Source: Chondrosia reniformis
Lineage: Eukaryota > Porifera > Demospongiae > Chondrillida > Chondrillidae
Direction: 5' to 3'
DNA length: 64,000 nucleotides
Assembly (NCBI GenBank): GCA_947172415.1
Contig: OX359195.1
Span: 1,178,001 to 1,242,000, forward strand
In this document: one piece after another, positions 8,201 through 54,308 of the stretch
Layout: each line of letters opens with the position of its first letter
How positions within the stretch are numbered: the stretch's first letter is position 1
Notes under the pieces: generated by a model
Databases searched by the model: none
Told to the model about the DNA's origin: nothing
What the model saw: the letters and a program-made list of their open reading frames with translations, nothing else
Position numbers and translations under genes: made by a program

Positions 8201-11200
8201 ATGTTTCATCTCCATGGTAACCAATTGTGACAGGTTGTCAAGTAAGACCTGTAAGTCTTCATGTGTAAAGTTGACACTCCCCCGACTAAGAGATTTCAAC
8301 TGACGACAAGTAACTACTGAGCTCATTAGCTCATTTGCCTTCACCTTCTCATAAAGAACTACATAGCAACAAGAAAGGATATAGTTTGTGGTATCATTTC
8401 AAGTTAGCAACTTCACAACTCATGACTTGTGCAGTGAATGACAACACAAGTGACTCAGACTTGTGCAGTATGTACACACACTAGTGACTGTCACATGTGA
8501 CTATATTTAGATGATCACTTTCGAAATCTATTGCAAGGTGTTCAAGTCTCTTTGAATGAAATGAAACAATGTCAGACATCACTGAAATGTTATCTCCTCT
8601 CTCTGAAGGAAGCAACTGTAGAGATGTAAAATGTACCATTGTATATATAATATACTGTATATAAGTTTCGAATACATTTATAAAACAGTTAACACATTTA
8701 AAGAAGCCATAAAACTACACTTCAGGTTGGACTGCAAACATACTTCATTAAAAGTCAGTTTATTTAGTGAACTTTGCAACTTTAGAAAGTCTTGAAGTAC
8801 AACAGACTTTATCAGTCTCACTGAGTAATCTATAGAAGGAAAGTGATGAGTATAACATGTCAACAGTCTACAAAAGTGTTTTATTCACACATCTCAACTT
8901 ACAATATCAACTCACCTTTAATTGTCACTTCTTCCAAGTATGTCACCTTTCCAGATATTTGCTGAATAAAGGAATCAAAATCAGATGTATCAATTGGAAT
9001 CCAAACTGAAAGTCGTTTGATGTGTCTGCTGATGGTCATCAGGTAAGCTAAACTGTTGAGCTGATGGAGACTGAGACAATAAATGTTAGTATCACTGCAA
9101 TACTCCATGACCCTTTGACACAGCTCTTCATTTCTGCTCTCTGCTACTGCTGTAGCAATCTCAGGGAAAGGGGTCCCACTAGCAAACCTGCGATCATTGG
9201 TAAACGCAAGAGGCTCAAACAAGAGGTCTCTCACAGCATCATTCTCTAGTCCTCCAATGCCGCAGAAGAAAAGGAATGGCATCTCGTAGTTGGAGTCTGA
9301 TAAGACAAACTCTCCTCTCTTGTTGTACCCAAGAACAAGTCTCTCTTTCCAGAACTTTCCCTGTTCCTCAGCAGGTAACTGCTTGACTGCACAAGCTGCA
9401 AGGAACTCTTGTACTGTTCTGTGAAGAAAGTGGTACGATCCAGTGACTCCACCAAAGGCACTTCGATAAGAGATGCAGTTCATTAGACCAAAATGATCAT
9501 CCTCTGACAGCTCCAGATTGTGGAAAATGATGACATCTCTCTTCACTCCAAACAAAGCAAGTTGACTCAGTTCGATCAAACGGGGACAGAGTTGAAGGAC
9601 ATCCTCAAAACTGCCAATTTCCATTTCCACTCCATTCTTCTCAAAGTGTCGCTTCACAGTGAGGCAGATGATGCTTTTAAATAGACCACTGATTGTATCG
9701 GGAGGGACATCAAGGACATCATTGACATAACATGTCATCAGCAGGATCAGAGGGATGAAGCACATGGCTTTGATTCGAGGCATGGTAGAGTTCAGCCTTG
9801 CTAGTAAAGCATCAGCTACAGAACTAGATGACTCTCCGTAGTACTTTCTTATGAACTGCTCAATCTCTTTCTCTCCAAATCCACTCACCTCGATGCGTCT
9901 GTCTATTTTGTCGTGTAGAGGGGCTGATGCTCGTGGTCGGGATGTGATGATGAACGATGACTGGGGGAGGGTCTTGCCATTTAGAATGTCTGCAACCAGA
10001 GATTTCTCCTGTAGCTTTTCAGGGAACTCATCGTAGCCATCCATGATGAACAGTGTGTCCTTTCCCTTGTTGGCTGTGATGTACTGACTCAAAGTGGACA
10101 CATCTTCTTCATCAAGACTTGCCCCAACATCACTGGTACAGCTACGAACTAGGTCCTCTACACTCAGTGTGGTATTGGAAGGGAGACCTCGGAGTACTAC
10201 TCGGATGACTAGCTTGTATTCACTGGCAAATGTACCCTCAGCAAACTTGTAGCACAGCTGTTTGGTCAGAGTGGACTTGCCTATACCAGGCTCTCCTTCC
10301 AGCAGGATGCGTTTCCTTGGAGGTCGCACAGGTTCGTACTCCAAGATCTCCTGAAGGCCGATTGGTCCTCCCTTGAAAGGTTCTCTTCTGTGTGGTGTGG
10401 AAGAGGCAAGTTTCACAGCTGCAGCATCCTCTGCTCTTCTTGGTTTCAGATCAGAGGGATTGACCAAGTGAAGTCTAACAAACCCCATCTCAGCTAGTTT
10501 CAGTAGCCAGTGGTCAGCTATGACGGGACCTCTGTAGAGTGATTTGAGGCTCTGAATGGCTTTCTCCTATAAAGTATTACAGTAAAAAATGTATATAATA
10601 TAACAAGAAATTCTCCTGTTTGGATGGCAGATATACGTAATTACAAGTTACATACATACCACATGTAATAAACTAATTAACAGGTACAAGTAAACATACA
10701 ATGTTGGAGGTCTGGTTAGTGCCTGTAGTCGTTGAATCTTTGGACTGACTGGTGGATGGACCTACCAACCACATGTAGAACAGAAAGTGATTGAGACATG
10801 AAAAACATTTAATAAAATATATATCATGAGATGAGAATGAATACTTGTGGTTTATGATATCATAAATTTTCGGCATAGATAATAGTAATACTAAATATAT
10901 ACATATATATCTTCTAAAGATAGTTATTTGATATATAAATGACCACACCCACACCTATATCCTAACTTTGTAGAAACTGGTCAATCAGTTGAGCTAGTTC
11001 TTGATGTCCGTCATGTGTAGTGTCATCCTTCAGTGCTGCAGAGAGAGCTCCAAGTTTCCTTGTAGAAGGGTCTCCATCCAAGAGACTGTACAGGAACCTG
11101 TTAGCATCCTCCAACTGGGGACAAGCTTGAAGTCTCTGGAACTCTCCAACTGAAATGACATTAGCTGCTCTCAGAGAAGCACCAACTCTTTTGAAATCAC

Positions 11201-12928
11201 ATCTCCCAAGAAATGAATGGACAGTCTCACTGAGGAACTCTCTAACAACACCTACATACATACATTGGTAAATAAATAAATATATTCATTGACCAGAACC
11301 TGAACATTTTAATAAGTTATACAACTGTTTGACTCTTGCTAATGTACTACTAAACCCCATCAGCTTCCTAAGTGCTCTCTCTGTGCTTTACTCTGGTTGG
11401 ACTTGGGCTTGTGATCCACCCTGTGTTCCAACAGAAGACAACGCTATCGGGTCTACTTACAAGAGTGAAGGGACAGCAGAAGCACATGGACAAGGGTGTG
11501 GTGTACCAGATTGCTTGTTCACAGTGTGATGAGGTTTACATCGGTGAAACAGGACGACCTTTGAAGAGCAGGATCAGTAAACACAAAAGAGCAGTGGCCA
11601 CGGGTGATGTACGAAACGCCAACGCTGCCCATTGGATGAAGACAAGCCACAACATGGACTGGGGGTCAGCACACGTGGTGGACAGGTCAAATTGGTGGAG
11701 GGAGAGGAAGATCAAGGAGAGTGTGTACATAAGGACCAGGAAGACGTACAATCTGGACTCAGGGTCTTCTCTAAGCCCAGTGTGGAACTCCCTGATTGGT
11801 CATCTCAGGGTCTTCTCTAAGCCCAGTGTGGAACTCCCTGATTGGTCATCTCAGGGTCTTCTCTAAGCCCAGTGTGGAACTCCCTGATTGGTCATCGACA
11901 GGTGTAACGTGATGTATGATTGGTTCACATTGTGTACTATTGTACTGTACTGTATTGTACTGTGTACTATTCTATTCACTTCCTACCTCATTAGTTGTGT
12001 ACGACACACGTATGCCACCCTGACACAATTCATTGCCGTTGCATGCATGAGTATATAAGTTGACATTTTCTCTTTTTGTACTGTATGCCTGATGAAGCCC
12101 GTGAAGGGCGAAACGTTGCATTAAAGTGATCTATACGTGATTTGTTGGCATGCTTGATCGTCCAAAGAAAACGTTCTACTATTAATTTCAGCATGCTGGA
12201 TAACTTCCATTACACTCTCTCTCTATTCTCTGAGCATTTTAGAGAATACTGCCTAGGTATATATAGGGTTTTAATGCCTTTTGGATAGTCAAAAACACAC
12301 TAGAAGTCCTAGATAGTCCTAGGTCTTCACATGCACTGTAAAAAGGTGGTTGGCATAACCCGCCATAGTGCTGGTGCTGGCTTCCCACTACTGCTAAATT
12401 ACCACTGCATGGTATAATAGTGTGTTTAGGCTATAGACACTCAAAATAATGGTGTTGCAGAGGTGTGTCCTATTTAAAAAAGAATGTAAACACCCTATAT
12501 AGTTTTAACAGTTCCCTCTCTTGCTATATCAGATTTTGAAGGGAATGTGCTTGCTGCATATATTTAGGTGCATGAGCTTTTTACACAAATTATTGTTCAT
12601 GTTGCTCAATAAGGTTGTGTGCAATTTGATTAATGTTATTAGTATAGTTATAGAATTACATAATTATATTAACGTAAGATATAAAGTTCCACCGATGGAC
12701 CTTCAAAACTATTAATATTGCATTATATAGTTCCACTGATTGGGGCAATCAGGGTGGAGGCACAACTGGCAGTCTAGATATATTCTTTCTCTGCCTCTCG
12801 TAAAGAAAGTAATGGTATTAGATTACTCGTGTTAATCACTCACTTCCAGTTTGCTCCTCTTCTAAACGACGTGTCCTGTCCTGATGTGCCCTTTGTGAAG
12901 CAGTTCGACGACGAAACACATTTCCCAT
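5286..12928 (-). CDS. NLR1: CARD-NACHT-LRR receptor, complete
   Basis: Fourteen coding exons, in transcript order: 12928-12844, 11251-10967 (CARD), 10761-10700 (linker), 10566-8916 (NACHT), 8829-8744, 8615-8519, 8358-8162, 7729-7591, 7414-7236, 6788-6750, 6545-6380, 6130-5955, 5787-5472, 5305-5286. They sum to 3498 bases, 1165 residues plus stop, with every phase agreeing. The NACHT exon shows Walker A GEPGIGKST, Walker B LFIMDGYDEF and the sensor-1-like FIITSRPRA. The LRR exons show ribonuclease-inhibitor-like L..L.L patterns. NLRs are cytosolic sensors that oligomerise through NACHT after ligand binding by the LRRs and signal through CARD contacts (family knowledge). Odd points: the CARD-exon donor is GTTAGG rather than GTGAGG, and the donor at 8518 is a weak GTGATC. 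The 5787 acceptor is my choice; an AG at 5752 gives a shorter exon in the same frame, but NLR2 and NLR3 lack that site. Confidence 0.85.
8916..10566 (-). CDS. NLR1 NACHT exon
   Basis: Single 1651-base exon, phase 0 in and phase 1 out, encoding EKAIQSLKSLYRG, the whole NACHT NTPase with its winged-helix and superhelical parts (FLHRTVQEFLAACAVKQLPA near the end), and a first LRR-like segment (LEEVTI). Nearly identical to the NLR2 exon; NLR3 and NLR4 form a second, more diverged pair. Confidence 0.9.
10967..11251 (-). CDS. NLR1 CARD exon
   Basis: A 285-base symmetric phase 1-1 exon encoding about 95 residues with a CARD-like six-helix pattern: VVREFLSETV, LRAANVIS, EFQRLQ, DANRFLYSLLDGDP, LGALSAAL, LAQLIDQFL. 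A death-fold adaptor domain is expected at the N-terminus of a signalling NLR. CARD is preferred over DEATH because of the DANRFLYSLL helix followed by a small loop, but no profile search was run. Confidence 0.8.
11759..11896 (+). repeat. 46-bp unit repeated three times inside the Penelope-like fragment
   Basis: Unit beginning CTCAGGGTCTTCTCTAAGCC and ending GATTGGTCAT, three head-to-tail copies that look identical. It overlaps the end of the endonuclease reading frame. Confidence 0.9.
12085..12121 (+). ncRNA. Hammerhead-ribozyme-like motif at the Penelope 3' end
   Basis: CTGATGA at 12089-12095, then a GCCC/GGGC stem with loop GTGAA, then GAAA at 12110-12113 and CGTT. ATGC just before the core can pair with GCAT just after GTT (helix I). 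Helix III would be only AC/GT and could form between two copies. Penelope elements are known to carry hammerhead motifs of this compact kind; activity is not shown here. Confidence 0.6.
12126..12843. other. NLR1 intron, no gene seen
   Basis: Remainder of the intron between the MGNV and CARD exons of NLR1. It is AT-rich. A 64-codon open frame at 12521-12715 has no recognisable domain, and I found no matching stretch in the other units. I see no RNA gene. Confidence 0.5.
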
Positions 12929-17200: not shown

Positions 17201-20200
17201 TTCATTCATCCTACTCTACTTGATTGGAGATAAATGGTGGATTTTTAGAGTTAAATTGGGAAGGATTTGATAGTTAAGTTGTTGGATTATAGGTTAAAAC
17301 TAAATACGTCTCCATTCATCCTACTTTTGTCCTGAGGTGTACCTCAAACTTTCCTCCAAAACTCTCTTTTCCTCCAGGAGAGAGGTTTGGTCAAGAAATG
17401 TAAGACTAACTGTGTTAGCGTGCAGACATTTAGTGAGAAGGAAAAACAGAGCTAATTGGTCTGAGAAATGAATTAGCTCTTATTAATGAAGTTAGTATAA
17501 GGTCTAGTGCTGGTTGTAAAATGAAATAAAGATCAAGTAATCTAGAAAGAAAACTTGAGAACAATCCCATTGTATAGGATTAACCTGTGCCTCTGGTCCA
17601 TTAGGATACATATAGACATATAGCACTTCCTGTGACCTCTTACAGTCTCTGGTCCATTACCTGTGGTCTCTATGATTAAGTGTCAAGTGCAACTGCAGTG
17701 ATGAAGTGTGATTGTAATGATTATACTCCTACTGCTACTATATACTACTATACTACTATATTGCTATACTACTACTATATTACTATACTACTATACTACT
17801 ATACTACTATACTACTATACTACTACTATACTACTATAATACTATACTGCTATACTATACTACTATACTACTATACTACTACGTATATACTACTATACTA
17901 CTATACTGCTATACTACTACTATACTACTATACTACTATACTGCTTTACTGCTATACTACTATACTACTATACTACTATACTACTATACTACTATACTAC
18001 TATACTGCTATACTGCTATACTACTACTATACTACTATACTGCTATACTGCTATACTACTATACTACTATACTACTATACTACTATACTACTATACTACT
18101 ATATACTACTATACTATTATACTACTATACTACTATACTACTATACTACTATACTACTATACTACTATACTATACTTGTAGTGGAATGTGAATCTGTTTG
18201 ATACATTTCTGATACATTTCTGTTAATCAAGTGCTAGATTTTATGAATAATGGATTTTTATGTCTTCCTGTATATATTATTTTTAAATGTACAAATTGCT
18301 TTTTAAATTTATTCTTTGTCTTGTTGTCTGTGATCTTGTGTGATGATTTGGCCAGGTCATCTGTAACTGGCCAGGAGACAGTTATTACAGCTTCTGTTTC
18401 ATTGGACCCCAGTAATGGCTTTATCCAGAAATGATTCGGAATTTCCTCTCTAGATACAAATGTGAACTTTAAGCCGTTTAGTCTCTCCACCTCTCCACGG
18501 AGACCACCAGTTTGGTCACGAATGACATGTTCCTGTACATGATTGTATCCGTGGTTACCTAGCAACGGCCACCTCTACAAGTGACCTCAAAGACCAGTAG
18601 TGCCCTTTGAAACATTTGAAATATTTCCTCATGAAGATGCTTGGATGAAAGAGTGGCTATGTCTTGTGAGCGTACATAAATTTAGGTAGCACTAGAGGGT
18701 CACAAAGAGATGGAGAATCCATAAATGTGTTTCTCTCACTCTACCAGACTCTGATTTTCAACATGAGAACACTTGTGGTTAAAGTATCTGGTTAATGTCG
18801 GACAGCTTTCCCATAATCTAATTGGATTGCAACCCTGCCCCCATTGCTGTACAGCTATCATCATTCAATCACATCCAGTGTTATATAATTTGAAAACTCA
18901 TCATCCCAGGAGGGAAATGAGTTTCCAAGTAATATTGAAGGAAGTATGGAAGCTAATGTTTTATTGTATTGGAGGTAGAGTATCTAGATTGGCTATCCTT
19001 ACCTCTAGGTTGTACTATTTAAGAATGGTATTTAGCTTAGGGAAAATGTCTCCCAAGCTGTACCCCTTGATATCATTGTTAAGTCAGTGAGTGGATTGTC
19101 ATATTTTGTCATGTGACTGTTCATGTGACTGTCAGCTGACTCTCCATGGGTACATTGCTCAAAAAGGACTAGTTTCAGTAACTTGTGGTGCCACCATTTT
19201 ATTTCAGTACATCATTATGATTGTTGTGGTTCCAATCACTTGGACCATCTTGTTTAGAATTTCCAGCAATCTTGTTTACTTTTGCCTACTTTATGACCAC
19301 CTGATTGAGCAATTGTTCATTTAATGTGAATGAAATATTGCAATGATTCTTTTCATGTTTGTTCTCCTCAGGCTATCAGCACACTGGAGTCTGACAATGC
19401 TCCGCCCTCCTCCCCAGTCAGGGAGACCTCTGACGACAAGAGGGAGGAGAAGGACCACGTGAGAACTGAAAGAGAATCTACTGAAAACATTCCTGTTAAT
19501 TCCAACCAAATGGAGGAATCCTCAAGGTACATATACGTATATTATCAAAAATATTGTAATTTTGCAGGACCTGCTCACAAATCCATGTCTGTGGAAACAG
19601 CTATCCTTTTTAAAATAATTTTATGTCTGTCCGTCCGTCTGTCTATCCGTCTTTCCGTCTGTCTATTCGTCTGCTTGTCTCTCTCTCTGTCTGTCTGTCT
19701 GTCTGTCTATGATAGCTCTTAGTTCTTACAATTCATACTCGATCGCCCAAACATAGAAGTACCACTTCTGCAATGTTAGTTACTTTTTCTAGATGTGCCA
19801 ATCACTGTTATAGTGCCATCCCTACTTCTAACTTTGAATGTTTTTATTTAACTTCTGTATTACCTGTAGTCAAGATGAATATTAATATAGTTGTGGTTGG
19901 CATATCTTTATTACCTGTAGTCAAGATGAATGGCAGATGTGCACTGATCAAAACTCTGGCTATACCTATTACTGGAATACTGTCACTAACAATGTATCCT
20001 GGACACTCCCACAAGGGGTCACGCCCACCAACCTACAGGACAAGGACACTTCTAACATTGATATGAGTGTGAGTGAAGAGAACACTGGTGAAGTTGTGTA
20101 TGGCCCAACCATTCTGGAGGAGGCGGAGTCAGGTGTCCCCTCCCCCTCCCCATGCACGGCAGAGATACAGGAGGAGACTGATCTCCAGGAGAATGTAGAT

Positions 20201-23200
20201 CCTGAGGAAGATGACAAGACTGGTACCACTCTGAAATTGGATATGCAAAATGGAAATGGGAATGAGGATTCAGAAGCCAATCAAGATGGAGTCAGTTTAG
20301 TGGGATATGTTCCTTCAGAATCAGACGAGTCGGACATTGATAACATGCTTGACAGTGCACTGGAGGCTATCCTGGAGGAGGGACCACGTAACGGAGACAC
20401 ACTGCCAACCAGTCAGAAACCAATCACAGAAGCTGGTCCAGATAGTCCTTTAGCTAAAAAGACAAGAATAGCAGACAATTTAGAAGATGAAGAAAGTGTT
20501 ACTAGAGATGATAGCAGTAAAGATGATGTTGATGGTATGGAAGTGGGTGTCACTGGTGATAAAGAGGGAGTGGCTAACTTGAAACCCAACAATGGAAGTA
20601 ATCGGCCTCAACTGCAAGATTGTTCGGAGGAGGAGAACTTGTGTAATCCCAATCTTACTAAGGTATGCATTGATTGAGGTATGCATAGATAGTACACATT
20701 ATGTAATGGATTCATAAGATTGCATAATTCTATATATTATATATACGTATGTACACTGTCTTTGAGATGGTTCATCTTTTAGTCTTTTGAATGTCTAGAG
20801 ATGCAGTCAGTTCTTTTAGAATCAAACGTTTTTACCCTGGCGATCTTCTTCAGTCACTTTCTCTTGAAATGTTCAAAAGACTAAAGATGGTCATAAGATT
20901 CCTAGCAATTGCTTCTTCGTGTTATTCCTCTCTACTGTATTAGGAGACTACAGAGCTCACTTGTAAAATGATTTTAAAGAGGCTAGCCCTATTAGGAGCT
21001 GTTACCATGGGAACACATCCACTTATTATAGAATTAATCAAAGTTGAGGTTTGTACATATATAATATATTGCACTGCTCTTCTCCACTATTGTCAGGTAG
21101 CATCTCATTTTACAGGTCAGAGTCAATGATTGGAGAGAGGGGGTGTTACCAACACAATATCTCTTGCAGAAATTAGAGGAAACTACCCTTGCCCTGAAAG
21201 AATATGAGACTCAAGTAGCTCCAACTGGATGGACTTTTGTTTGGGATAGGTGGGTGCTTTATGCATTTGGTATACCCACTTCAGATCACATGATAGTCAC
21301 ATGACATTTAAACTGACAAACTGTGCTGTAATAAATCTTTGAAACTAAGCCTCTGAAAGTGTGGCTCACGCTAGTCTCCCTAGAGACATAGTAACTCGTT
21401 CAGTACACCAGAGGGAAGTTTGATTATAGGGATTTCCTCATGGCAGAGCAAGTTTGATGTAGTCAGTTAGGAGGTGTGAGTTGCCATGGTAATGAATAAT
21501 TCGGATTGTTATCTTCTAACATATGTACATGCATTTTACTGATCAAAGAATTATCTATATTTTCTTATTAAATTGTGTATCTAACATTTAAATATTTACA
21601 TATATTCTATTTAGCTGCAATTATTGAACATTTCTATATGCTTTTCAGTGCTTTTGTACTAAACTCTATTCAGTTCCTCTAGTGACACTATATCGCTTCT
21701 TCCATTGTAATGTAGTGATTTTGAAAGGTATTACTATTATAATGCTGTCACTGATAAGGCTTCATGGGACTTTCCCTCTGATGACGTCATAGAGGGCGGG
21801 GCCATAGGACAGGGAAGAGAAGCTAGTGAGGAACAGACTCCAATCAAAATGCAGAAGAATGTACACTCCTCCCACTCAAGAGAGACCACACCTCCACCAG
21901 GTATATAAGCTATATCAAGTAAAAATGAACAAATTAGAGACTTTCAGATCAAAACTGATCTTGGCTCCGATGTCTCATCAGCAGAGTCTGGAGTTCTGGA
22001 ACTTCACTTAATGGGAACCAGAGTCTTCCTGGTTTCCATTAAGTGAACCTCTGTTTCACCCTGCATTGAACTTCTTATATACATTCTGTAGGTGTTGAAG
22101 AATTAATTGCTCTACCTACAGTTGAGGGGGTGTGGCAAGGTCCTCCTCCTCCCCCTCCCCCTCCCTTAGAAGAAGGGGAAATCCCTCCCTCTCCTCCAAC
22201 TCCCCCGTCTCCTCCTCCAGATGAAGAAGCAGAGAAGGATGAAAGTGAGAGCGATCCTGAAGAATTTATAGTTAAAGCTGAGCCTCAAATTTATTATGGT
22301 CCAGTGGGTCCTCCCGGAAGATTGAGTGATGTAAGTCTGCTCGTGTGAACTGTACAGTACATATCACATAAACTGGTACCATAAAGTGGGATATTTTTGA
22401 GGATAGAATTTTTTGTGAATCTTTGAAAAGGTCCTCAGAATAAATGTGATTCTTATTTCACTATTGCTGAGAGTGAGAGCTAATCATGTGAAACTCAAGA
22501 AAAATGGCGGATCGAGGAAATTTTTATGATTTTGGGGTTAGCTTGCAAATTAGAATAGTATACAGCTAAACTAAAGATGTCATGTAGAGCCAATGAAATC
22601 CTCCCATATAAGGTGGCTAGAATCTAAGGATGCTGGGAAAACAAATAGTGTCAACGTCCCAATGTATGTGTCTGAAACATGAACACTCATTATAGAAAAC
22701 CTTATATATGGCCCATTATTGTATGTATGGAGAAGTTCTCATTACGTTTATATATATAGTTCCCTATAGACCTTTCAGATGTAGCATTATTCATATACAT
22801 GTACGTGTATCATTTAACGGAACTTTAAGAGGTGACCATAATAAGGAGGTGACTTGTCTATTAAGGTGACCTCTTTCACAGGATTTACTATAATTCCACC
22901 TTACCTATATATAGCTACCTGCCATGCATTGAACTTCTTATATACATTCTGTAGGTGTTGAAGAATTAATTGCTCTGCCTACAGTTGAGGGGGTGTGGCA
23001 AGGTCCCCTCCTCCCCCTCCCCCTCCCTTAGAAGAAGGGTAAATCCCTCCCTCTCCTCCAACTCCCCATCTCCTCCTCCAGATGAAGAAGCAGAGAAAGA
23101 TGAAAGTGAGAGTGATCCTGAAGAATTTATAGTTAAAGCTGAGCCTCAAATTTATTATAGTCCAGTGGGTCCTCCCACATCTAGAAGATTGAGTGATGTA

Positions 23201-24728: not shown

Positions 24729-27700
24729 TCACAAGTAATCATCTTCAATTGGCCCTGGAACAAAAAGAAAAGAATTACATATTCACAAGTTACATAATAT
24801 AATGTATTCCTATTAATAACACAGTCCACATGTGACACTATTTGGATTGAAATTAGTAAATCTACTGTTAACCAAACTACCTATTACATGTACAAACAGA
24901 TGATGAAAGACATTCACTTACCTAACTCAACAGTGAGTCTCAATTCCTTGTTGACTTTTCTTACATTATCAATCACTTCCTGTTTAGGAGCATATTCTTT
25001 GTATTTCTCATTCATCACCAGTTCCAACTCTCTGAGATTCTGATTGACTGCTGCTCCCTTTAGAATGCTCTCTGCAACATTCCTCCAGTCCATTTTACCC
25101 AATTCACTATTCACTTCCAACCTCTCTAGTGTAGTGTTCTCCTTGACAGCTTGTTCAACTGATGTCAAGATATCTTCTTCAGTGACATCCTGGATATTCA
25201 GTACAAGTGTATCCAGTACAATTAAATACATGCACTACAATATGAAGTGATTACCTAATCTAAAACACTCAGAGGACATAGACTGGAACAAACTAGTCAA
25301 ATAAACCTAAACCTTGTAATAAGCAGACTGGATATATCTTTAAAAAGTAGGGGAAAGTAATATTTACTAGTGATAGGCAGTCAAGTGTACCTCAGACTGG
25401 TCTGTGTCAGTACTGATGGTGAGTTCTTTCAATGAAGTGTTGTCATGTAGACATCCAATAGCATTGGCAATGTCCCTCGGTGTGATGTTGTAAGAGTTTC
25501 CTAGTGTATTATAGAGTTGACCAATTGTAACACTCTTCAATCCACTTTGTAGTAGTTGCACAAGTAATGCTCCATTTTCTGTGAGTTGAAGGAACCAATC
25601 AGATTACAGAACATTAACACATTGCAAATATATATTTAATATTAATTATATATTATTTATACATATTAATATATAATTAAATACTTATGTAATAATTTGA
25701 AATGTTGCAGAGAGAGGATATACATTGGCTACTAATCACTTGAAAGGGACACTTTACTGAACACAACCATTCTATTGAGATGACTGTATAGAGTACATGA
25801 TCCTCATAGTTGATGGAAACTATTAAGTCCATAGGTAATACATTCTGTACATAAAGTTATAAAACCTACCTTTAAAGTCATAGCTCCACAGATGAACTTG
25901 TTCCAATGAAGGATTCTGGATCATTCCCTTCAATATACTGGAGGTCAGTGTTTGATGTCTACCAACTTCCATGGTGACCTTCCTGAGTGTCCTGCACTGT
26001 CCAACTCCACATTCAACAAGATCAGTGAGACCTTCCTGTATACACCACACATAACAGAGATGTGATATACACATGGGAATACACTATACAAAAGTGTCAA
26101 CTGAAATATCCCCTCACAATTGAGTGGATATAACAATAAAATGTCTTCTGCTCAGAACAAGGTTAGCTGACATGATGTAAACATTGTGTGGATGAAATAA
26201 TTACATGGAAATGAGACAGCACTGCCAGTCTCTACATACCAGTTGATCTGAGAGAACAGTGAATGAGCAGAGCACTCTCTAATAATCAAATGGATTGGAC
26301 TGGTCAGAAGAATGACCATTTGAACTAATTTGCACCACACAAGACACATCTCTCTTCTCAATTGAACACTTTCACTGATAAACAATACAGTTATTACATA
26401 ACTTTTCTATAAGAACATTATTTGGACCAACTATGGGATAGCCATAAGACTGCTACACATTATCAATTAAACAGGAGTAACAAAGTGAACCCTCTAAATA
26501 TAAGTTAGTTATGTCCATATACTTGAGAAGCAATACTAGTCAGTAGCTTCTGCACAGCCTTTCACAGATCCTGTCTACATACACTTGGAACTCATTTCAG
26601 ATACACATACAAGGGCTATATAGCTATGAGGAGATATAGTGTTAGGTGTGTATGGGCCAGAGTGGTGAATGGGGAGAGTGAAGTGGAGAAGATAATATTC
26701 TATATATCATCATCACACTCACAGGTAATGAGGTACTGTTCAGTTCAAACTCAAACTCTTCTATTTCACTGCTTCTAAGACAGTCAAACACTTCACAACA
26801 TTGTGGCACTCCTTCCATCAACCTGAGACAAAGTGTCTTTAGTGAGCTCTTCTTCATACAACTCACAACACATGGTAGTAACTCTACACAATCAGCATCT
26901 ACAAAAAGTTACAAAACATACTATGTACAATCACACACCACCAGGTTATCAGAACTAGACCTCATATTGACAAGTTAACAAGTTATAACAACTTTACTAC
27001 AATATTCACACAAAATGTATAAAAGAGTTTATAAGAGATCAATAGACTAGAGTACTTTGATAACAATACACTTACCTGAGCATTTAGAAAAGTCAACATT
27101 TACTTTCTTCATGTTTAGTTTGTCTTTGATACCAAACAAGAACACTTTCTTCAAATTCAAACTACACCACCGACCTAATGTCACATCTTCCAGACTGGGG
27201 TGCCTCCTAACGCACTAGAGTATAAAGACGTTGATGGATCACTCAAGAATAACAATATATACAAGTGCTTATCTAAATAGAGAATTACTATACATAAAGA
27301 CATATCTCAACATTCACACTTAACACTGCACACAAGTGTCATACAGTGAGATCTCATGTGACCAGCAACCAATCACATGTAGTGACTACAGCTGATTATA
27401 GAGTTGTCCCATAGCTGCATTCACTGGTTTGTGTCACATACATGATACACTATATAGCTGGATAGAATATGAACACATTTCAGTGGAATAGAACAAATAT
27501 AAAGTGACCACTGACCAAATACAATATTCACTATTAATAGACTAAATACCTGTCCATAAAGATTAACATTCATTCAACTAAAATATTAGCTGTTCTGTAG
27601 AGAGGTTTTACTGTTCTTCTTTACACTTGTATGTATTCCACAACTCACATTGACACTGGCATCAATAGCACCACCTTCATATTCACAATTCCTCATCTCC

Positions 27701-30700
27701 ATGGTAACCAATTGTGGTAAGCTGTCAAGTAAGACCTTTAAGTCTTCATGTGTAAAGTTGACCCAGCTCAGACTAAGAGATTTCAACTGATGACAAGTAA
27801 CTACTGAGCTCATTAGCACACTTGCCTTCACCTTCTGAAGAACTACATAGCAACAAGAAAGGATATAGTTTGTGGTATCATTTAAATTTAGCAACTTCAC
27901 AACTCATGACTTGTGCAGTGAATGACATCACAAGTGACTCAGACTTGTGCAGTATGTACACACACTAGTGACTGTCACATGTGACTATATTTAGATGTAC
28001 ACTTTCAATGATATTCACAATGCTAACAAGAAGATATTACATTCCATTGACATACACAGTTGACATGACTCACAACTAAAATGCATCGCAAGGTGTTCAA
28101 GTCTCTTTGAATGAAATGAAACAATGTCAGACATCGCTGAAAAGTCATTTTCCAACTGTACAGATGTAAAATGTACCATGTATATTAAACAGTACTATAT
28201 ACTTACATAAATGTACTTTATATAAGTTTGGTAAACATTTACAAAACAATACAAAGAAAGAAGCCATAAAACTACACTTCTGGGTTGGACTGCAAACATA
28301 CCCTATCTGTTTGAAAGGTCAGTTTATTTAGTGAACTTTGCAACAGTAGAAAGTCTTGAAGTAGAACAGACTCTAGTCTGAATGAGTAAGCTATAGTAGG
28401 AAAGTAATGAGTGTCATCAGTCAAGTTGAATATTCACACTTCAAAGATAATCACAAGCTTAAGGTATTAGGAGCAATCAATACACACTGGACTGGATCTA
28501 TAAATTTGTAACTTCTTCTATATATAACATGTCAACAGTCTACAAAAGTGTTTTATTCACACATCTCAACTTACAATATCAACTCACCTTTAATTGTCAC
28601 TTCTTCCAAGTATGTCACCTTTCCAGATATTTGCTGAATAAAGGAATCAAAATCAGATGTATCAATTGGAATCCAAACTGAAAGTCGTTTGATGTGTCTG
28701 CTGATGGTCATCAGGTAAGCTAAACTGTTGAGCTGATGGAGACTGAGACAATAAATGTCAGTATCACTGCAATACTCCATGACCCTTTGACACAGCTCTT
28801 CATTTCTGCTCTCTGCTACTGCTGTAGCAATCTCAGGGAAAGGGGTCCCTCTAGCAAACCTGCGATCATTGGTAAACGCAAGTGGCTCAAACAAGAGGTC
28901 TCTCACAGCATCATTCTCTAGTCCTCCAATGCCGCAGAAGAAAAGGAATGGCATCTCGTAGTTGGAGTCTGATAAGACATACTTTCCTCTCTTGTTGTAC
29001 CCAAGAACAAGTCTCTCTTTCCAGAACTTTCCCTGTTCCTCAGCAGGTAACTGCTTGACTGCACAAGCTGCAAGGAACTCTTGTACTGTTCTGTGAAGAA
29101 AGTGGTACGATCCAGTGACTCCACCAAAGGCACTTCGATAAGAGATGCAGTTCATTAGACCAAAATGATCATCCTCTGACAGCTCCAGATTGTGGAAAAT
29201 GATGACATCTCTCTTCACTCCAAACAAAGCAAGTTGACTCAGTTCGATCAAACGGGGACAGAGTTGAAGGACATCCTCAAAACTGCCAATTTCCATTTCC
29301 ACTCCATTCTTCTCAAAGTGTCGCTTCACAGTGAGGCAGATGATGTTTTTAAATAGACCACTGATTGTATCGGGAGGGATATCAAGGACATCATTGACAT
29401 AACATGTCATCAGCAGGATCAGAGGGATGAAGCACATGGCTTTGATTCGAGGCAGGGTAGAGTTCAGCCTTACTAGTAAAGCATCAGCTACAGAACTAGA
29501 TGACTCTCCGTAGTACTTTCTTATGAACTGCTCAATCTCTTTCTCTCCAAATCCACTCACCTCGATGCGTCTGTCTATTTTGTCGTGTAGAGGGGCTGAT
29601 GCTCGTGGTCGGGATGTGATGATGAACGATGACTGGGGGAGGGTCTTGCCATTTATAATGTCTGCAACTAGAGATTTCTTTTGTAGCTCTTCAGGGAACT
29701 CATCGTAGCCATCCATGATGAACAGTGTGTCCTTTCCCTTGTTGGCTGTGATGAACCGACTCAAAGTGGACACATCTTCTTCATCAAGACTTGCATCACT
29801 GGTACAGCTACGAACTAGGTCCTCTACACTCAGTGTGGTATCGGAAGGGAGACCTCGGAGTACTACGCGAATGACTAGCTTGTATTCACTGGCAAATGTA
29901 CCCTCAGCAAACTGGTAGCACAGCTGTTTGGTCAGAGTGGACTTGCCTATACCAGGCTCTCCTTCCAGCAGGATGCGTTTCCTTGGAGGTCGCACAGGCT
30001 TGTACTCCAAGATCTCCTGCAGGCCAATTGGTCCACCCTTGAAAGGTTCCCTTCTGTGTGATGTGGAAGAGGCAAGTTTCACAGCTGCAGCATCTTCTGC
30101 TCTTCTCGGTTTCAGATCAGAGGGATTGACCAAGTGAAGTCTAACAAACCCCATCTCAGCTAGTTTCAGTAGCCAGTGGTCAGCTATGACGGGACCTCTG
30201 TAGAGTGATTTGAGGCTCTGAATGGCTTTCTCCTATAAAGTATATAGTATATAAAAATGCATATAATATAACAAGAAATTCTCCTGTTTTGATATTAATT
30301 ACAAGTTACAGTACATACATACCATGTGTAATATTAATTAACAGTATACGTATAGCACATGTAATACGTATATGTACTAATTACATACATGTAAACGTAC
30401 AATGTTAGAGGTCTGGTTGGTGTCTGTAGTCATTGGATCTTTGGACTGACTGGTGGATGGACCTACAAACCACATGCAGAAGAGAAATTAAAGTGATTGA
30501 GTAAATATAAAACACTAATAAAATATATATTATGAGATGAGAATGAATACTTGTGGTTTAAATTTTCGGCATAGATAATAGTAATACTAAATACATGCAC
30601 ACATACATATCTTCTAAAGATTGTAATTTGATATATAAATGACCACACCCACACCTATATCCTCACCTTGTAGAAACTGGTCAATCAGTTGAGCTAGTTC

Positions 30701-32052
30701 TTGATGTCCGTCATTTGTAGTGTCATCCTTCAGTGCTGCAGAGAGAGCTCCAAGTTTCCTTGTAGAAGGGTCTCCATCCAAGAGACTGTACAGGAACCTG
30801 TTAGCATCCTCCAACTGGGGACAAGCTTGAAGTCTCTGGAACTCTCCAACTGAAATGACATTAGCTGCTCTCAGAGAAGCACCTACTCTTTTGAAATCAC
30901 ATCTCCCAAGAAATGAAGGGACAGTCTCACTGAGGAACTCTCTAACAACACCTACATACATACATTGGTAAATAAATAAATATATTCATTGACCAGAACT
31001 TGAACATTTTAATAAGTTTTGACTGACTTGTGATGGTTGCTGCAGTTTGACTGACTTGTGGTTCTGTTTGGTCTGCAGTTTGACTGACTTGTGGTTCTGT
31101 TTGGTCTGCAGTTTGACTGACTTGTGGTTCTGTTTGGTCTGCAGTTTGACTGACTTGTGGTTCTGTTTGGTCTGCAGTTTGACTGACTTGTGGTTCTGTT
31201 TGGGATAACTCTGATGACTCACATTCTCCTAATAAAGTAAATAACATTCTATTCATTTCACTTGCACTTCTCCTTTGTACATTCTCAAATAAATATGGTG
31301 GTTAGATGATCTGGCCTATGGAGAACCAACTCAGTATATAAGATCTATATAGTGGAACTAGCTCTATACTGACACTATTCAATACAGATTAGTGATCATG
31401 GTGTAGATTAAATCCACAAGTGATTTATGTGGACATTACTATAGAACCAACTGCTAACACTATTACATCTGACACTCACCATCAATGCATTTATTGTACT
31501 TTGATTTCTTAGAAAGTGGAACAGAGTCTTCTAAACAAGTGATTAAAAAGGAAGGAAATAAAGCCCCAAACATTCTCATGGAGTAATTTGAGTTATAATT
31601 AGACTATAAAAAGACTGTTTGGTCTAACAGATTGCCAATCCTTAAATCTTTCAATCACTGGAGAGATTGTCAATTCGTATTTATACAATGCACTGAATAA
31701 AACAGTTGTGGTTTAACATATCATCCAAGAAGGTTTACTGACCTGGTAGGAACTGTTTCACTAGTTCAGCCAGTCTCCTGTGACCTCTGTGAGTAGTGTC
31801 CTTCTGTAGTGCATCACAGAGAGCCTCCAGTTTGTCACAACAAGGATCTCCTTCAAGGAGACTGTACAGGAACCTGTTAGCATCCTCCCACCTCTGATGG
31901 TCCCTCAGAGTCTCACACTCGTCAGCTGAGATAACATTAGCTGCTCTCAGGTGATCTGCCACTCTTCTCACGTCACACCACTCGAGGGCTGGATGGAGAG
32001 ACTTCTGAAGGAACTCCCTCACTTCTCTGGGAGGTATCTCTGTGGAAGTCAT
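24729..32052 (-). CDS. NLR2: CARD-CARD-NACHT-LRR receptor, complete
   Basis: Exons in transcript order: 32052-31743 (CARD-a, ATG at its 5' end), 31228-31028 (repeat linker), 30951-30667 (CARD-b), 30462-30401, 30232-28588 (NACHT), 28390-28302, 28155-28074, 27842-27649, 27214-27076, 26898-26723, 26278-26240, 26035-25870, 25578-25391, 25234-24922, 24754-24729. Total 3915 bases, 1304 residues, all phases agreeing. Walker A GEPGIGKST and Walker B LFIMDGYDEF are intact. Double CARD followed by NACHT-LRR is the NOD2-like order. The exon upstream of 32054 is not found; CARD-a has an acceptor at its 5' side, so a 5' UTR exon near 34087 is likely. The protein ends GPIEDDYL. Confidence 0.83.
28588..30232 (-). 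CDS. NLR2 NACHT exon
   Basis: 1645-base exon, nearly the same protein as the NLR1 NACHT exon; it is two codons shorter (CTSDASL in place of CTSDVGASL). Whole Walker A, Walker B and arginine-rich SRPRA motifs. The strong similarity to NLR1 contrasts with the diverged LRR exons downstream. Confidence 0.9.
30667..30951 (-). CDS. NLR2 second CARD exon (CARD-b)
   Basis: Orthologous to the single CARD exon of NLR1 and NLR3, phase 1-1, with only a few changes (TVPSFLGR for TVHSFLGR, DDTTNDGH for DDTTHDGH). Confidence 0.85.
31028..31228 (-). CDS. NLR2 repeat-linker exon (SQTADQTEPQV repeats)
   Basis: 201-base phase 1-1 exon with acceptor TTATTAG and donor GTCAGT. It is built from a 33-bp tandem repeat encoding SQTADQTEPQV, four full units plus flanking partial units. 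It sits between the two CARD exons and reads in frame with both. Each repeat carries a CAAGTCAGT donor-like site, so the linker length could also vary by splicing. Confidence 0.75.
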
Positions 32053-32054
32053 AC
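31743..32054 (-). CDS. NLR2 first CARD exon (CARD-a)
   Basis: Phase 1 exon encoding MTSTEIPPREVREFLQKSLH, then LEWCDVRRVADHLRAANVIS, ECETLRDHQRWEDANRF, LYSLLEGDP, LEALCDALQ and LAELVKQFL. It has the same helix pattern as CARD-b but is clearly diverged, so it arose by an older exon duplication. I see no counterpart in NLR1 or NLR3. Confidence 0.82.
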
Positions 32055-34086
32055 CTACAGTAAAGTTATAGTATTAAGAGGTTGTCTGGTCTGATCAAGC
32101 AGTTGTACAACAACAGTCAGTTGATGGAAATAGACAATAGGAAATTTAAATTACAAATAATGTTGAATGGATCTTAGACCTGATTGAACTAACCTTCAAC
32201 TGAACCAAAATGAGGTCTCGTCCTTACGACCAGACACACGTCAACGCTTAGTCAGGATAAAAGACGATGTCTTAGAGAGAACTAGTACAAGCGGAAGAGA
32301 TCAATTGGTATGCAAACAGTAAAGCAAAAGTTTAAATTACATAAATTTAAATTACAAATAATGTTGAATGGATCTTAGACTTGATTCAACTAACTTTAAA
32401 CTCAACCAAAAAGAGGTCTCGTCCTTGTGATCAGAGACACGTCAACACTTAGTTAACGTTCAGGTAAAAAGAAAACGACGTCTTAGAGCGAAACAAGTAC
32501 AAGCGAAGAGCGTAGACCTACTTACGAGGGGCGTACTCACGGGGATTCCCCTCGGCTGACCTCAATTGGGACAGTGCGGCGGTAAGAACAGACTTTTACG
32601 GTAACTGGAACATTAGTGAAGAGTTGCGATATATGCGTTCACAGACGACAAGACGACAGTGTGTATGTACGGCGAAGGTATATAAGAACAGACGTATACA
32701 GTCACACAGTTACAGAAGAAGTTTGACTTCGATTCGGGTCTCCTACGTACTCTGATCATGAGGCTATGCTATGTAATGAAACTCTATATACGCTGGAGAA
32801 GAGATACTTGGCTACTCAATTTATATATATGTCACGTGACTTGCAATTGGAGCAGTGGTGGCTGTGAACCATGCATATAGGATGCACGAATTCTCTTCAC
32901 AATTATTGTATGTATGTACATTTCCTTTGCTTACGTATATATATACTGTATGTTTAACTGTAATACTTGTGGTTTGATTATCACATTATGTATGAAGAAG
33001 TCAAGCTAGCAAGTATACCAATTGCAATTTAGTCTTATCTTATTCATAACTTTCCATTTGCTAGAATATCAGTACCAAATGTACATCAAATTGTAGCACC
33101 CAAAATTAATGGTTAGAGATTGGTAATTTATATTCTCTATGGCTATGTAGATATATTACATATATATTATATTCTGCAATAGCAATCACTATACAAAAGA
33201 TGAAGAGAGTGTTTTAGCAAAATGTTCTGTCAGGCAAAGGTAAGGTAATATAGTTATGCATGTAGTAAGTCAGTCAAAATCAGTATCACTGAATGCCTAC
33301 AAAATGTAAGAGAATACATGTTAATTTATACATATGTATGTATGTTTTTATTAATTGCATACTATTAAAAAGGGATAACACAAAGTATACAACTACCTAA
33401 TCCCATATATACTCAATATATTATATCTATACATAAGTATAAATACACTTAATACATGTACCTATATATCAGATATGAACAGATACGTACTTCCATTAAA
33501 TTCTTAGGTGCCACTGTTAGAGACTTTTTCAATTCATTAGAACTTTCACTTGGTGTCTTGTTCAAGCTAATCTCTCTCTCAAACTGATGGGAGATGACGT
33601 ATCTCTAAAGTGCTCCGATCTGAATCTATAAAATCATTAAAACCAATAAAGAACATACATAAAGAAATATGTAAACTAGTGTGATAGAGATAATCACTTG
33701 GAGATATTACACCAACCAAGTGACTAAGTCACATCTTGGTTGGGAGACCAATGTCCTATTAAATGTGTACACATGCATACAAACGTATATAAATTATAGT
33801 GCAAAATGTTTGTCATTCTCTATGTACTTACATAGTAGAGAATATGTACATAGTAGAACATTCATTCTGTATATGTATAATAGTTCTGTATTTATATGCT
33901 CTATATGTATACAAATAGTCTTTAAGGGTTAAAGGTATAAATGTGGAAATGAGGTGGGTCTTGAGTATCGGCTTGTTCTGATAAGAGAATCGCTAGTAAT
34001 TAGTGAATGACGATTACAACTATTTTGTAGTTAGTATAAGAGGAGAAACATGAAGGAAGCATTACTATGACAATTTTAGCTTACCT
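32055..34086. promoter_or_regulatory. Head-to-head intergenic region between NLR2 and FNBP4 copy 3
   Basis: Contains a tandem duplication of about 200 bases (starting near 32140 and again near 32340, both with AATTTAAATTACAAATAATG), the GAGGTCTCGTCC block twice, the CCCTCGGCTGACCTCAA block near 32549, and TCACGTGA at 32832-32839. The MGNV exon found before NLR1 and NLR3 is not seen here. From 33000 to 33900 the sequence is AT-rich, without a supported gene. Confidence 0.5.
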
Positions 34087-35009: not shown

Positions 35010-37077
35010 TATATGTACGTATACATACAATATATAGGATATGTTTGCAATATATCATGTACCATATTCTATAGTCTGGGACATTTATATTAGTAAAGAT
35101 ATTCTATATTTTACGTATTCATCCAGATTCTGATACTTTTAATACTTTCTCTAGTTGTTTATTGAATTAACTCTAAAATGATAAATGTTAAAATTCTGTT
35201 AACCAAGCTATCGTAATCACTTTGTAAATTTGTTGTTGACGGATTTGATTCATGTGTCAAATGTGCAAAGATACGAATATAGTATTATAATATACAAGCT
35301 TATATAGAATACCAATTATTTAGACATGTACGTAGTAAGCAATTAAGAGCTATATAATCAATTACTATAATGTTATTGTTTAATCTGTCTCATAAGGTGT
35401 ACAATTAATTAGTATATACGTACATGATTTATTGAACATGAAAAATCTAATACACAATTTTCCTACATTCTATGCATACTCTATAAAAAAGCCTATACGG
35501 GAACTTAATCTGGAGAGAGCTTTGGATGAGGATACAGAAGTCTTTTCTTCCTTCTTTTCCCTTCTTTCATCTTCTTCTCCACTGGGTCAGACAGCTATTT
35601 CTGGGAATTCCACCCTTCATCAGTGACCCTGGGAATCTTTGTCTTTTCTTGATCTTTATGAATCCTGATTTTTTGGCATTAAGTTTGATGAATGTTACGA
35701 CCCGGAGGTCTTTATCAGCAATATGATAAGGAGAGCACTGTATTAATGTAATATGTATACCATGATATACTTCTCACTTGCTTTCTTTACGCCCCCAAAG
35801 AGCTGTTTCCAGGAATTATTTCACCAGTGACCAGTGAGCACCGCAGTTTTCTGAATAATATTAGCTCATCCAATACATTGTTGATTGAAATCACTAAATG
35901 TTTAGAAAACAAAAATTGTTGTAGCATGAATTACAAATTAACAAAGGAATTTTAATAAATATATCTTTTAGAACTGTTGTTCTTATTGAAAACATGAATA
36001 ATTACTAGTTATTACACCTACCAGCCAAGTGACCAAAGTCCTATCTTGGTTGGTGGACTAAAGTCCTATTAAAAGGCAGCCAGTGATCATGAATCTCCAA
36101 GTCATCCAATATAGAAATAGTCTTAAAAACCACAGACATCTGTTTCTCCTTCATTGGATTCTTATTGTTGTGATAAAATTGGATTGTGTGTTCCTCTCTG
36201 ACCTCCCTTTACAGAATTTTAAGTAGTGTTATGTGTTGTGTGACAGCCAATGGTCATATGTGGATGTAACTGGCAGATGATATAATGAGTAGTAAATATT
36301 TGTGTAAATTGCACTCCACTTGTACTCTATTTGAATGACTACAGTGCTTACATAGAAGAGGTGCAGGTGGTATTTCTATATCACATGATAAAGTTGTTGT
36401 TACTGTTGCGTATCCATCTGGTCAGATTGTGTAATGGAACTGGTTCTCAGGAAGTTGTGTAGGGTGCAGTAGCTGTACAGTTCTGTTTACAACTGAGAGA
36501 GAAGCTAGTAACAAAGATGAGTTAAGAATGATTATAGAGAGGTGATGGATTCATCCTACTCTACTTGATTGGAGATAAATGGTGGATTTTTAGAATTTAA
36601 TTGATAAGGATTTGATAGCTATGTTGGTGGATTAAAGGTTAAAACTAAATACGTCTCCATTCATCCTACTTTTGTCTTGAGGTGTACCTCAAACTTTCCT
36701 CTAAAGCTCTCTTTTCCTCCAGGAGAGAGGTTTGGTCAAGAAATGTAAGACTAACTGTGTTAGCATGCAGACATTTAGTGACAAGGAAAAACAGAGCTAA
36801 TTGGTCTGAGAAATGAATTAGCTCTTATTAATGAAGTTAGTATAAGGTGTAATGCTGGGTGTAAAATGAAATAAAGATCAAGTAATCTAGAAAGAAAACT
36901 TGAGAACAATCCCATTGTATAGAATTAACCTGTGCCTCTGGTCCATTAGAATACATATAGACATGTAGCACTTCCTGTGCCTCTTACAGTTTCTGGTCCA
37001 TTACCTGTAGCCTATGATTAAGTGTCAAGTGCATCTGCAGTGATGAAGTGTGATTGTAATGATTATACTCCTACTGC

Positions 37078-37288
37078 TACTATATACTACTATATACTAC
37101 TATACTACTATATATACTACTATACTACTATATACTACTATACTACTATACTACTATACTACTATACTGCTATACTGCTATACTACTATACTGCTATACT
37201 ACTATACTACTATATACTACTATACTACTATACTACTATATACTACTATACTACTATACTACTATACTACTATACTACTATACTATAC
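37078..37288. repeat. TACTACTA 8-bp microsatellite, FNBP4 copy 3 intron 1
   Basis: About 210 bases, the shortest of the three tracts whose both ends are in the window, with TATATACTAC interruptions. Confidence 0.95.
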
Positions 37289-50865: not shown

Positions 50866-51302
50866 TTACCTTGTCCTTGTAAGTGAAAACTATATCCACT
50901 TTATTCTTCAAAGAGCCAGTTACTAAGCAACCGTTGACATGGAAGCTTCTGAAAGTGTGTCATTGAAATCATTATTTTTCTTATCGCCTAAGACTGTTAA
51001 GTATGTGTGTACTGGAGGGGAATGACTCTGTATAGAGCAGAATTATCTATTCAAGCACCAATGCTCACTGCTACTTCTCTGAAGTGGAGCAGTAGTTGCT
51101 CCTTGATATTTTTACTTGTTTTTCAAAGCAATTTTCTCTTGTACATATCTCAACTATAGAATCGGCTGTAGGAGGAAAATGGCAAAAACTTGAAAGCCAT
51201 CCTGCCAATCCACTTCTAGGAATGATGAGTGGTTACCATAGCGATGAGGAAGGGGAAGCTGTTCAAGAAGAGGTCAGTAATAGAGTGGGCGTGTCCAACA
51301 GT

Positions 51303-53918: not shown

Positions 53919-54308
53919 GCTGCTACTACGTATATACTGCTATACTACTATACTACTATACTACTATACTACTATACTACTATACTACTATACTACTATA
54001 CTACTATACTACTACGTATATACTACTATACTACTATACTGCTATACTACTACTATACTACTATACTACTATACTGCTATACTGCTATACTACTATACTA
54101 CTATACTACTATACTACTATACTACTATACTACTATACTGCTATACTGCTATACTACTACTATACTACTATACTGCTATACTGCTATACTACTATACTAC
54201 TATACTACTATACTACTATACTACTATACTACTATATACTACTATACTATTATACTACTATACTACTATACTACTATACTACTATACTACTATACTACTA
54301 TACTATAC
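53919..54308. repeat. TACTACTA 8-bp microsatellite, FNBP4 copy 4 intron 1
   Basis: About 390 bases, with the same order of TACTGCTA and TACGTATA variants as the unit 2 tract, which suggests that units 2 and 4 share this stretch more recently. Confidence 0.95.

Follow-up and report, generated by a model that had tools for sequence, protein, structure and literature searches.

How does a gene of the NLR family come to carry two CARD-like domains in front of its NACHT domain, joined by a linker built of short repeats? The question is raised by NLR2, a predicted gene in a 64,000-nucleotide stretch of the genome of the sponge Chondrosia reniformis (contig OX359195.1, here C7; positions 1178001-1242000, called the window), which also holds the paralogs NLR1 and NLR3. 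We consider it quite probable that NLR2 is a member of a large family of tandem NLR genes, in which interchangeable phase-1 exons make up the N-termini. The search covered 117 Mb in 15 contigs, and at least 101 NACHT places, at least 44 of them on C7, were recorded among the best candidates scored. The counts given below refer to 40 C7 genes from those 44 places, the four left out starting at 120243, 394276, 403625 and 2152737. The first 20 genes, among them NLR2 (locus L023), were read in 10-kb loci, and the 20 on the other strand were placed from match coordinates and short stretches, with their modules assigned by distance, up to about 8 kb (L004, L072). NLR3 lies in locus L027.

Structure of NLR2

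All NLR2 exons are read on the minus strand, and a slash marks the exon edge in the donor motifs below. The CARD1 exon (31743-32054, 312 bases) follows a TGTAG, has its ATG at 32052 and leaves in phase 1 through the donor G/GTCAGT. The linker exon (31028-31228, 201 bases, phase 1-1) is bounded by a TTATTAG acceptor and the donor ACAA/GTCAGT, and contains 33-bp repeats at 31040-31203 (TRF, 5.0 copies, 100% match) that encode SQTADQTEPQV. The CARD2 exon (30667-30951, 285 bases, phase 1-1) has a GTAG acceptor and a GTGAGG donor. A 62-base Ser/Thr-rich exon (30401-30462, phase 1-0) then acts as an adapter between the phase-1 modules and the phase-0 NACHT exon (28588-30232), which has a type A 5' end and matches PF05729 with 93.1 bits (E 2.2e-26, cut-off 26.7), as expected of an NLR. 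The C-terminal exons (24729-28390), weakly LRR-like, form an open mechanical chain with approximate edges down to a stop at 24729.

The lengths of the CARD1, linker and CARD2 exons are all divisible by 3, with phase-1 edges, and the frame spliced from these exons, the 62-base exon and the NACHT exon is open throughout, with GT-AG edges. NLR2 is accordingly modelled with two N-terminal CARDs, so named by fold, in one predicted open frame with NACHT. An earlier note on this DNA had proposed the in-frame union of the two exons through a 201-base exon of 33-bp repeats, the symmetric phase 1 of the N-terminal exons, and a single CARD exon with an MGNV exon in both NLR1 and NLR3; re-derivation of the edges bears out each of these points. 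On the minus strand, NLR1 has the coding part of its CARD2 exon at 10968-11249 and its MGNV exon, of the form MGNVFRR, at 12845-12928, and NLR3 has the corresponding exons at 48950-49231 and 49657-49749 (form MGNVLNC), the CARD2 edges being re-derived in both. Their CARD2 exons are each 97.9% identical in protein to that of NLR2. The NLR3 form MGNVLNC presumably matches the PROSITE N-myristoylation pattern; an anchoring role of MGNV through N-myristoylation was not adopted, as the LDF, LEF and FRR variants miss the pattern. Upstream of CARD1 in NLR2, a minus-strand stretch of about 100 bases (32183-32279) shows 83-85% similarity to sequence that precedes the MGNV exon in NLR1 and in NLR3, and one might guess at a common promoter of CARD1 and MGNV genes.

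The linker exon was measured in 11 arrays of the left C7 cluster, with the diverged L025 array left out. A phase-1 donor is reached by nine of them, at 78 to 276 bases (78, 102, 141 or 174 in L018, 144, 144, 201, 210, 243 and 276); in L018 the last donor is out of frame and earlier donors are in phase 1. The other two arrays (L017 and L022) form hybrid exons, with linker sequence at the start and the 3' half of MGNV at the end. Repeat units in the NLR2 linker hold CACAA/GTCAGT, the letters of the real exon donor but in phase 0, and other than in L018 every donor-like site within an array is also in phase 0. Use of a phase-0 repeat donor would therefore shift the CARD2 frame, and short CARD1-only products could conceivably arise in this way.

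Domain identity

The Pfam CARD model (PF00619) gives CARD1 19.1 bits, below its cut-off of 23.9, and a search of the genome with the same model yields 25 places at E <= 0.001, all of them outside the two C7 NLR clusters. In a family alignment of 33 hand-picked rows, 20 of which were taken from a set of 150 matches, CARD is matched at E <= 1 by 11 members (best 9.6e-5). Profile comparison against solved structures returned CARD8 as the best CARD (E 0.065); the top-scoring match, ribosomal S12, is not a CARD and was set aside.

Structure prediction is more informative. AlphaFold (AF2) models, for which alignments of the four window sequences were supplied, show six helices in both domains, with a predicted local distance difference test score (pLDDT) of 80.6 for CARD1 and 91.6 for CARD2. 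In Foldseek the CARD1 model matches the APAF-1 CARD at a template modelling (TM) score of 0.72 (2p1h, E 0.05) and 0.68 (1cy5), and the CARD2 model at 0.80 (2p1h) and 0.81 (1cy5), with E of 0.23-0.36. Within the first 20 matches to each model every natural protein is a CARD; APAF-1, NLRC4, CARD8 and ARC are common to both lists, other CARDs occur in one, and designed proteins, some built on the APAF-1 CARD, are also present. We therefore read CARD1 and CARD2 as CARD folds that are remote in sequence, with the six helices of the CARD type in the models and Pfam scores short of the cut-off. The claim of the earlier note that both exons are CARD-like is thus supported by modelled structure and not by the Pfam threshold.

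CARD1 and CARD2 of NLR2 are 54% identical to each other, which suggests a duplication of the lineage's own; the likeness to NOD2 that the earlier note had drawn would therefore be confined to layout, where it serves as an analogy. Among the other modules, CARD3 is called CARD-like from its 26-29% identity to CARD1, and the Death-like exon, at 21.9 bits, falls short of the Pfam cut-off of 22.6.

N-terminal modules across the cluster

The N-termini of the cluster are built from a wider kit than NLR2 displays, consisting of CARD1 or MGNV, an optional linker, and CARD2, CARD3 or a Death-like exon. The CARD1 exon occurs in 20 copies on C7 at 88-100% identity: 16 are assigned to the 40 NLRs, one lies in the L031 array, one in L032, and two (starts 2669609 and 2748126) stand in the right cluster away from any assigned NACHT. 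L032 (C7:4778933-4783932) is a place where the CARD1-type exon adjoins a stop-interrupted CARD2-type exon. The first slot is occupied by CARD1 in 16 genes and by MGNV in 15, with the exon of L028 broken. The second slot holds a CARD2-type exon in 22 genes (a variant form in L004, L005, L077 and L082), CARD3 in nine, a Death-like exon in eight and no assigned module in one (L080). A class lacking a second domain had been entertained and was dropped after searches with Death-like and CARD3 found the eight Death-like exons and further CARD3 genes.

All six combinations of first and second slot are present, CARD1 being paired with CARD2-type, CARD3 and Death-like exons 9, 2 and 5 times and MGNV 10, 4 and 1 times. 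The linker was found in 23 genes, with weak matches in L002 and L073 (second 20) and L025 (first 20). Two CARD-like domains are present in 11 of the 40 NLRs, eight of them with the linker, and the exact order CARD1-linker-CARD2 recurs in six (L012, L013, L018, L023, which is NLR2, L024 and L075). The double CARD is a recurring architecture, and its treatment as a peculiarity of NLR2 had to be given up. Symmetric phase extends to the other modules in the left cluster, where CARD3 fits phase 1-1 at six of six donors and five of six acceptors, the acceptor of L029 being ambiguous, and the Death-like exon fits in four of four.

Exchange between paralogs

The clearest shuffled gene is NLR3, rather than NLR2. 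Its 5' part, from MGNV through CARD2, shares 98.0% identity with L030 across 1032 columns, whereas its NACHT core is 98.2% identical to L026, an MGNV-CARD3 gene, and 88.8% to L030. From 112 bases past CARD2, NLR3 matches type-B genes, and among alignments of more than 60 columns no type-A match was found from that point up to the NACHT part; type-A-like sequence gives way to type B in an intron stretch at 48838-48905 on the minus strand (L027 positions 7427-7494). The same junction of CARD2 to type B is seen in L012, whose NACHT sister is L019, again MGNV-CARD3 (support 99/94), and in L011 a type-B start turns into type A inside one exon.

NLR2 itself is about 98.5% identical over 3.2 kb to L018, another double-CARD gene. 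Its homology to NLR1 starts at 31018-31027 on the minus strand, 10 bases past the linker exon and just 3' of the donor, and continues downstream at 93.6% over 2055 columns; the two NACHT parts are 97.7% identical. NLR1 may have lost CARD1 and the linker, or the ancestor of NLR2 may have gained them. The NACHT tree places NLR2 as sister to L018 (99/94) and then to NLR1 (83/87), and NLR3 with three MGNV-CARD3 genes (100/98). On this tree the approximately unbiased (AU) test rejects a single clade for the 16 CARD1 genes (p-AU 7.6e-71) and for the 22 CARD2-type genes (p-AU 1.3e-6). Fisher tests, made with an earlier two-class coding of the second slot, gave no association between first and second slot (9,7,10,5; p 0.72) or between first slot and NACHT type (8,8,7,8; p 1), and an association of CARD2 with type A (15,7,2,15; p 0.0008).

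Symmetric phase-1 exons in differing contexts, together with chimeric genes, point to exon shuffling. The earlier note had seen such shuffling between neighbouring paralogs; the exchange of modules is upheld by the junctions of NLR3 and L012, and the best example shifts from NLR2 to NLR3.

Origin of the N-terminal arrangement

In the explanation that we favour, each gene of the family would be ordered as a first slot with CARD1 or MGNV, an optional 33-bp-repeat linker, a second slot with CARD2, CARD3 or a Death-like exon, the adapter exon, and NACHT of type A or B. Unequal crossing-over or gene conversion at common intron sequence would swap the modules, and the symmetric phase would keep the products in an open frame. 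As to function, binding of a ligand by the C-terminal part may lead NACHT to oligomerise and so gather several CARD1-CARD2 tandems, which could seed CARD assemblies with partners bearing matching CARD types, possibly Roc-like proteins with similar CARDs. The linker, rich in Gln, Thr, Ser and Glu, would be a flexible tether that drifts in length by steps of 11 residues without loss of frame. A tandem CARD gives valency or two partners in NOD2 or RIG-I, and here too it could raise valency or allow one receptor to address two partners.

Selective constraint differs between the two exons. In 18 CARD2 copies 17 nonsynonymous and 19 synonymous changes give a per-site ratio of 0.29 (p 0.0002), so that CARD2 is constrained or homogenised, and in 17 CARD1 copies 55 nonsynonymous and 24 synonymous changes give 0.69 (p 0.09), which indicates no clear constraint; L059, with a 3-base deletion, was left out of this comparison. 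Earlier pairwise ratios, 0.86 for CARD1 and 0.21 for CARD2, differ in size and agree in direction. Stops are absent from the 17 CARD1 copies (3.5 expected if neutral) and from the 18 CARD2 copies (1.4 expected). Because its constraint is weak, CARD1 could be decaying or diversifying.

This weak constraint is one of several points that weigh against our explanation. The exon structures and spliced frames of the NLRs are predictions from genomic DNA. A first exon is unassigned in nine of the 40 genes, and an MGNV-like exon lies upstream in four CARD1 genes (L013, L021, L025, where it has no MG start, and L072), so CARD1 and MGNV are not strict alternatives. The Pfam scan of CARD2 gave no CARD match, its best hits being NRG2_N (E 0.041) and FliX (E 0.08); NRG2_N, an unrelated model, is matched by eight of the 33 members of the CARD family alignment; a single CARD3 scanned alone had no Pfam match; and neither the CARD1 nor the CARD2 model has a Foldseek match at E <= 0.001. 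LRR_2 scores 17.9 bits against a cut-off of 20.9 in the C-terminal part of NLR2, for which the exon chain is approximate. The NACHT tree is poorly resolved, with eight of 37 branches starred and a bootstrap that had not settled, and on it a single clade of the six exact CARD1-linker-CARD2 genes is not rejected (p-AU 0.084), so that this architecture may have a single origin.

Part of this evidence would be expected under differential loss, in which an ancestor with MGNV, CARD1, linker and a second domain gave rise to paralogs that each deleted parts, with no need for exchange. The MGNV-like exons are kept 3 to 5 kb upstream in the four CARD1 genes, and NLR2 and NLR1, so close in NACHT, differ by the presence of CARD1 and the linker. 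We regard this as unlikely, though worth keeping in view: a CARD2 exon beside a CARD3 or Death-like exon occurs in none of the 40 NLRs (the second 20 assigned by distance), the 5' part and the NACHT of NLR3 have different nearest relatives, each at 98%, and the mosaic exon start of L011 and the linker-MGNV hybrids of L017 and L022 need recombination. It is slightly more doubtful still that the exons are genomic duplicates mostly not expressed as drawn, with CARD1 and linker alternative or decaying and the NLR2 protein mostly starting elsewhere. Stops are absent from all 20 CARD1 matches at 88% or more, eight left-cluster CARD1 copies retain one donor, and linker lengths vary while a phase-1 donor is still reached in nine of 11 arrays; these points outweigh, in our judgement, the weak constraint on CARD1, the stop-interrupted CARD2 copy in L032, a CARD1 fragment with an internal deletion in L084, and the decoy phase-0 donors of the repeats, which would shift the frame.

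That NLR2 is itself a true NOD2 ortholog, with an ancient tandem CARD retained, would match the order CARD-CARD-NACHT-LRR-like but seems very improbable. The signs against it are indirect and led us to set orthology aside as the default reading: the mutual identity of CARD1 and CARD2, CARD8 as the best CARD by profile, APAF-1 and NLRC4 as the best folds, and similar CARD exons upstream of a Roc-like frame.

Related modules near Roc-like frames

Such exons were found at L031 (C7:373823-380822), where a CARD1-type exon 90% identical to that of NLR2 is followed by a Death-like frame (22.5 bits, cut-off 22.6), two CARD2-type frames and a Roc/COR-like frame. On contig C1 (L085 and L087) the linker is flanked by a Death-like exon (matches of 14.8 and 12.8 bits, cut-off 22.6) on one side and by CARD3 on the other, and an open frame of Roc-like type follows some 2 kb beyond; on contig C3 (L084) it lies between the CARD1-exon fragment and CARD3. 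Both Roc matches, at 21.5 and 22.4 bits, are under the Pfam cut-off of 27. Modules related to those of the NLRs are thus present upstream of Roc-like frames on two chromosomes, putatively in one gene with them. There is an even chance, in our estimate, that one phase-1 death-fold exon kit with its repeat linker is traded across receptor classes, namely the NACHT genes of both C7 clusters and the Roc-like frames of C7 and C1. If so, the input of a receptor and its death-fold output would be reshuffled independently, like two packs of cards, a combinatorial germline wiring of the innate immune network that Pfam-based surveys would read as domain-less NLRX.

Other features of the window

Between the MGNV and CARD2 exons of NLR1 there is a GIY-YIG-like open frame (11372-11866, plus strand), which we take to resemble the endonuclease of Penelope-like elements, and upstream of NLR3 a 439-residue open frame (51229-52548, plus strand) presumably resembles a reverse transcriptase. 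Two near-identical plus-strand open frames (1792-2577 and 19886-20677), with what we assume to be a WW-domain-like start, were apparently copied with the NLR units. Arrays of the 8-base unit TATACTAC, or shifts of it, lie at 1-270, 17736-18172, 37064-37285 and 53933-54305, spaced at about one per NLR unit. Outside the window, a right-cluster gene has a TAA stop inside its NACHT match (C7:2641556-2642029).

Comparison with known systems

Human NOD2 (NLRC2) carries two N-terminal CARDs followed by NACHT and LRRs, and its partner is RIPK2. NLR2 is alike in having two N-terminal CARDs before NACHT, a layout known here from genomic prediction; to our knowledge NOD2 has no repeat linker exon of the present kind. 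The APAF-1 CARD (2p1h, 1cy5) ranks with the top structural matches for both domains, but at 12-16% identity and Foldseek E of 0.05 to 0.36 the likeness is one of fold class, not of close kinship.

In this cluster the swapping of output ends between animal NLRs, one exon at a time, could be studied in a compact setting whose junctions are recent enough to map, and the repeat linker, with its mostly frame-keeping lengths and decoy donors in the array, could be scored for variation between individuals. In the literature searched, titles and abstract openings described no sponge NLR with tandem CARDs or with modules shared with Roc, many journals lying outside the coverage. A survey of the sponge Dysidea avara reports an expansion of NACHT-LRR genes, sorted into NLRC (with CARD), NLRD (with Death) and NLRX (in which no N-terminal domain was identified) (PMC12909245). 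The CARD or Death N-termini are alike; unlike ours, its classes were set by Pfam and SMART, and the terms 'tandem', 'exon' and 'two CARD' are absent from its main text (PMC12909245). Since PF00619 finds nothing in the two C7 clusters, the present CARD-like genes would probably be filed as NLRX under such a scheme, a warning that sponge NLRs so labelled may hold CARD-fold domains under the Pfam cut-offs.

The closest published precedent that we found is the zebrafish NLR-B30.2 family of nearly 400 NLRs, mostly on one chromosome arm (PMC4852459). There too, subsets carry death-fold domains and N-terminal peptide repeats, the repeat variants are independent of the NACHT group, and the authors infer exon shuffling and gene conversion, with other immune families included (PMC4852459). 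In zebrafish, however, much of the exchange affects B30.2, the recognition domain, and a PYD is present in group 1 (PMC4852459), whereas in the present cluster several CARD-like types and a Death-like exon appear to be swapped, together with one repeat linker exon and with switch points in introns.

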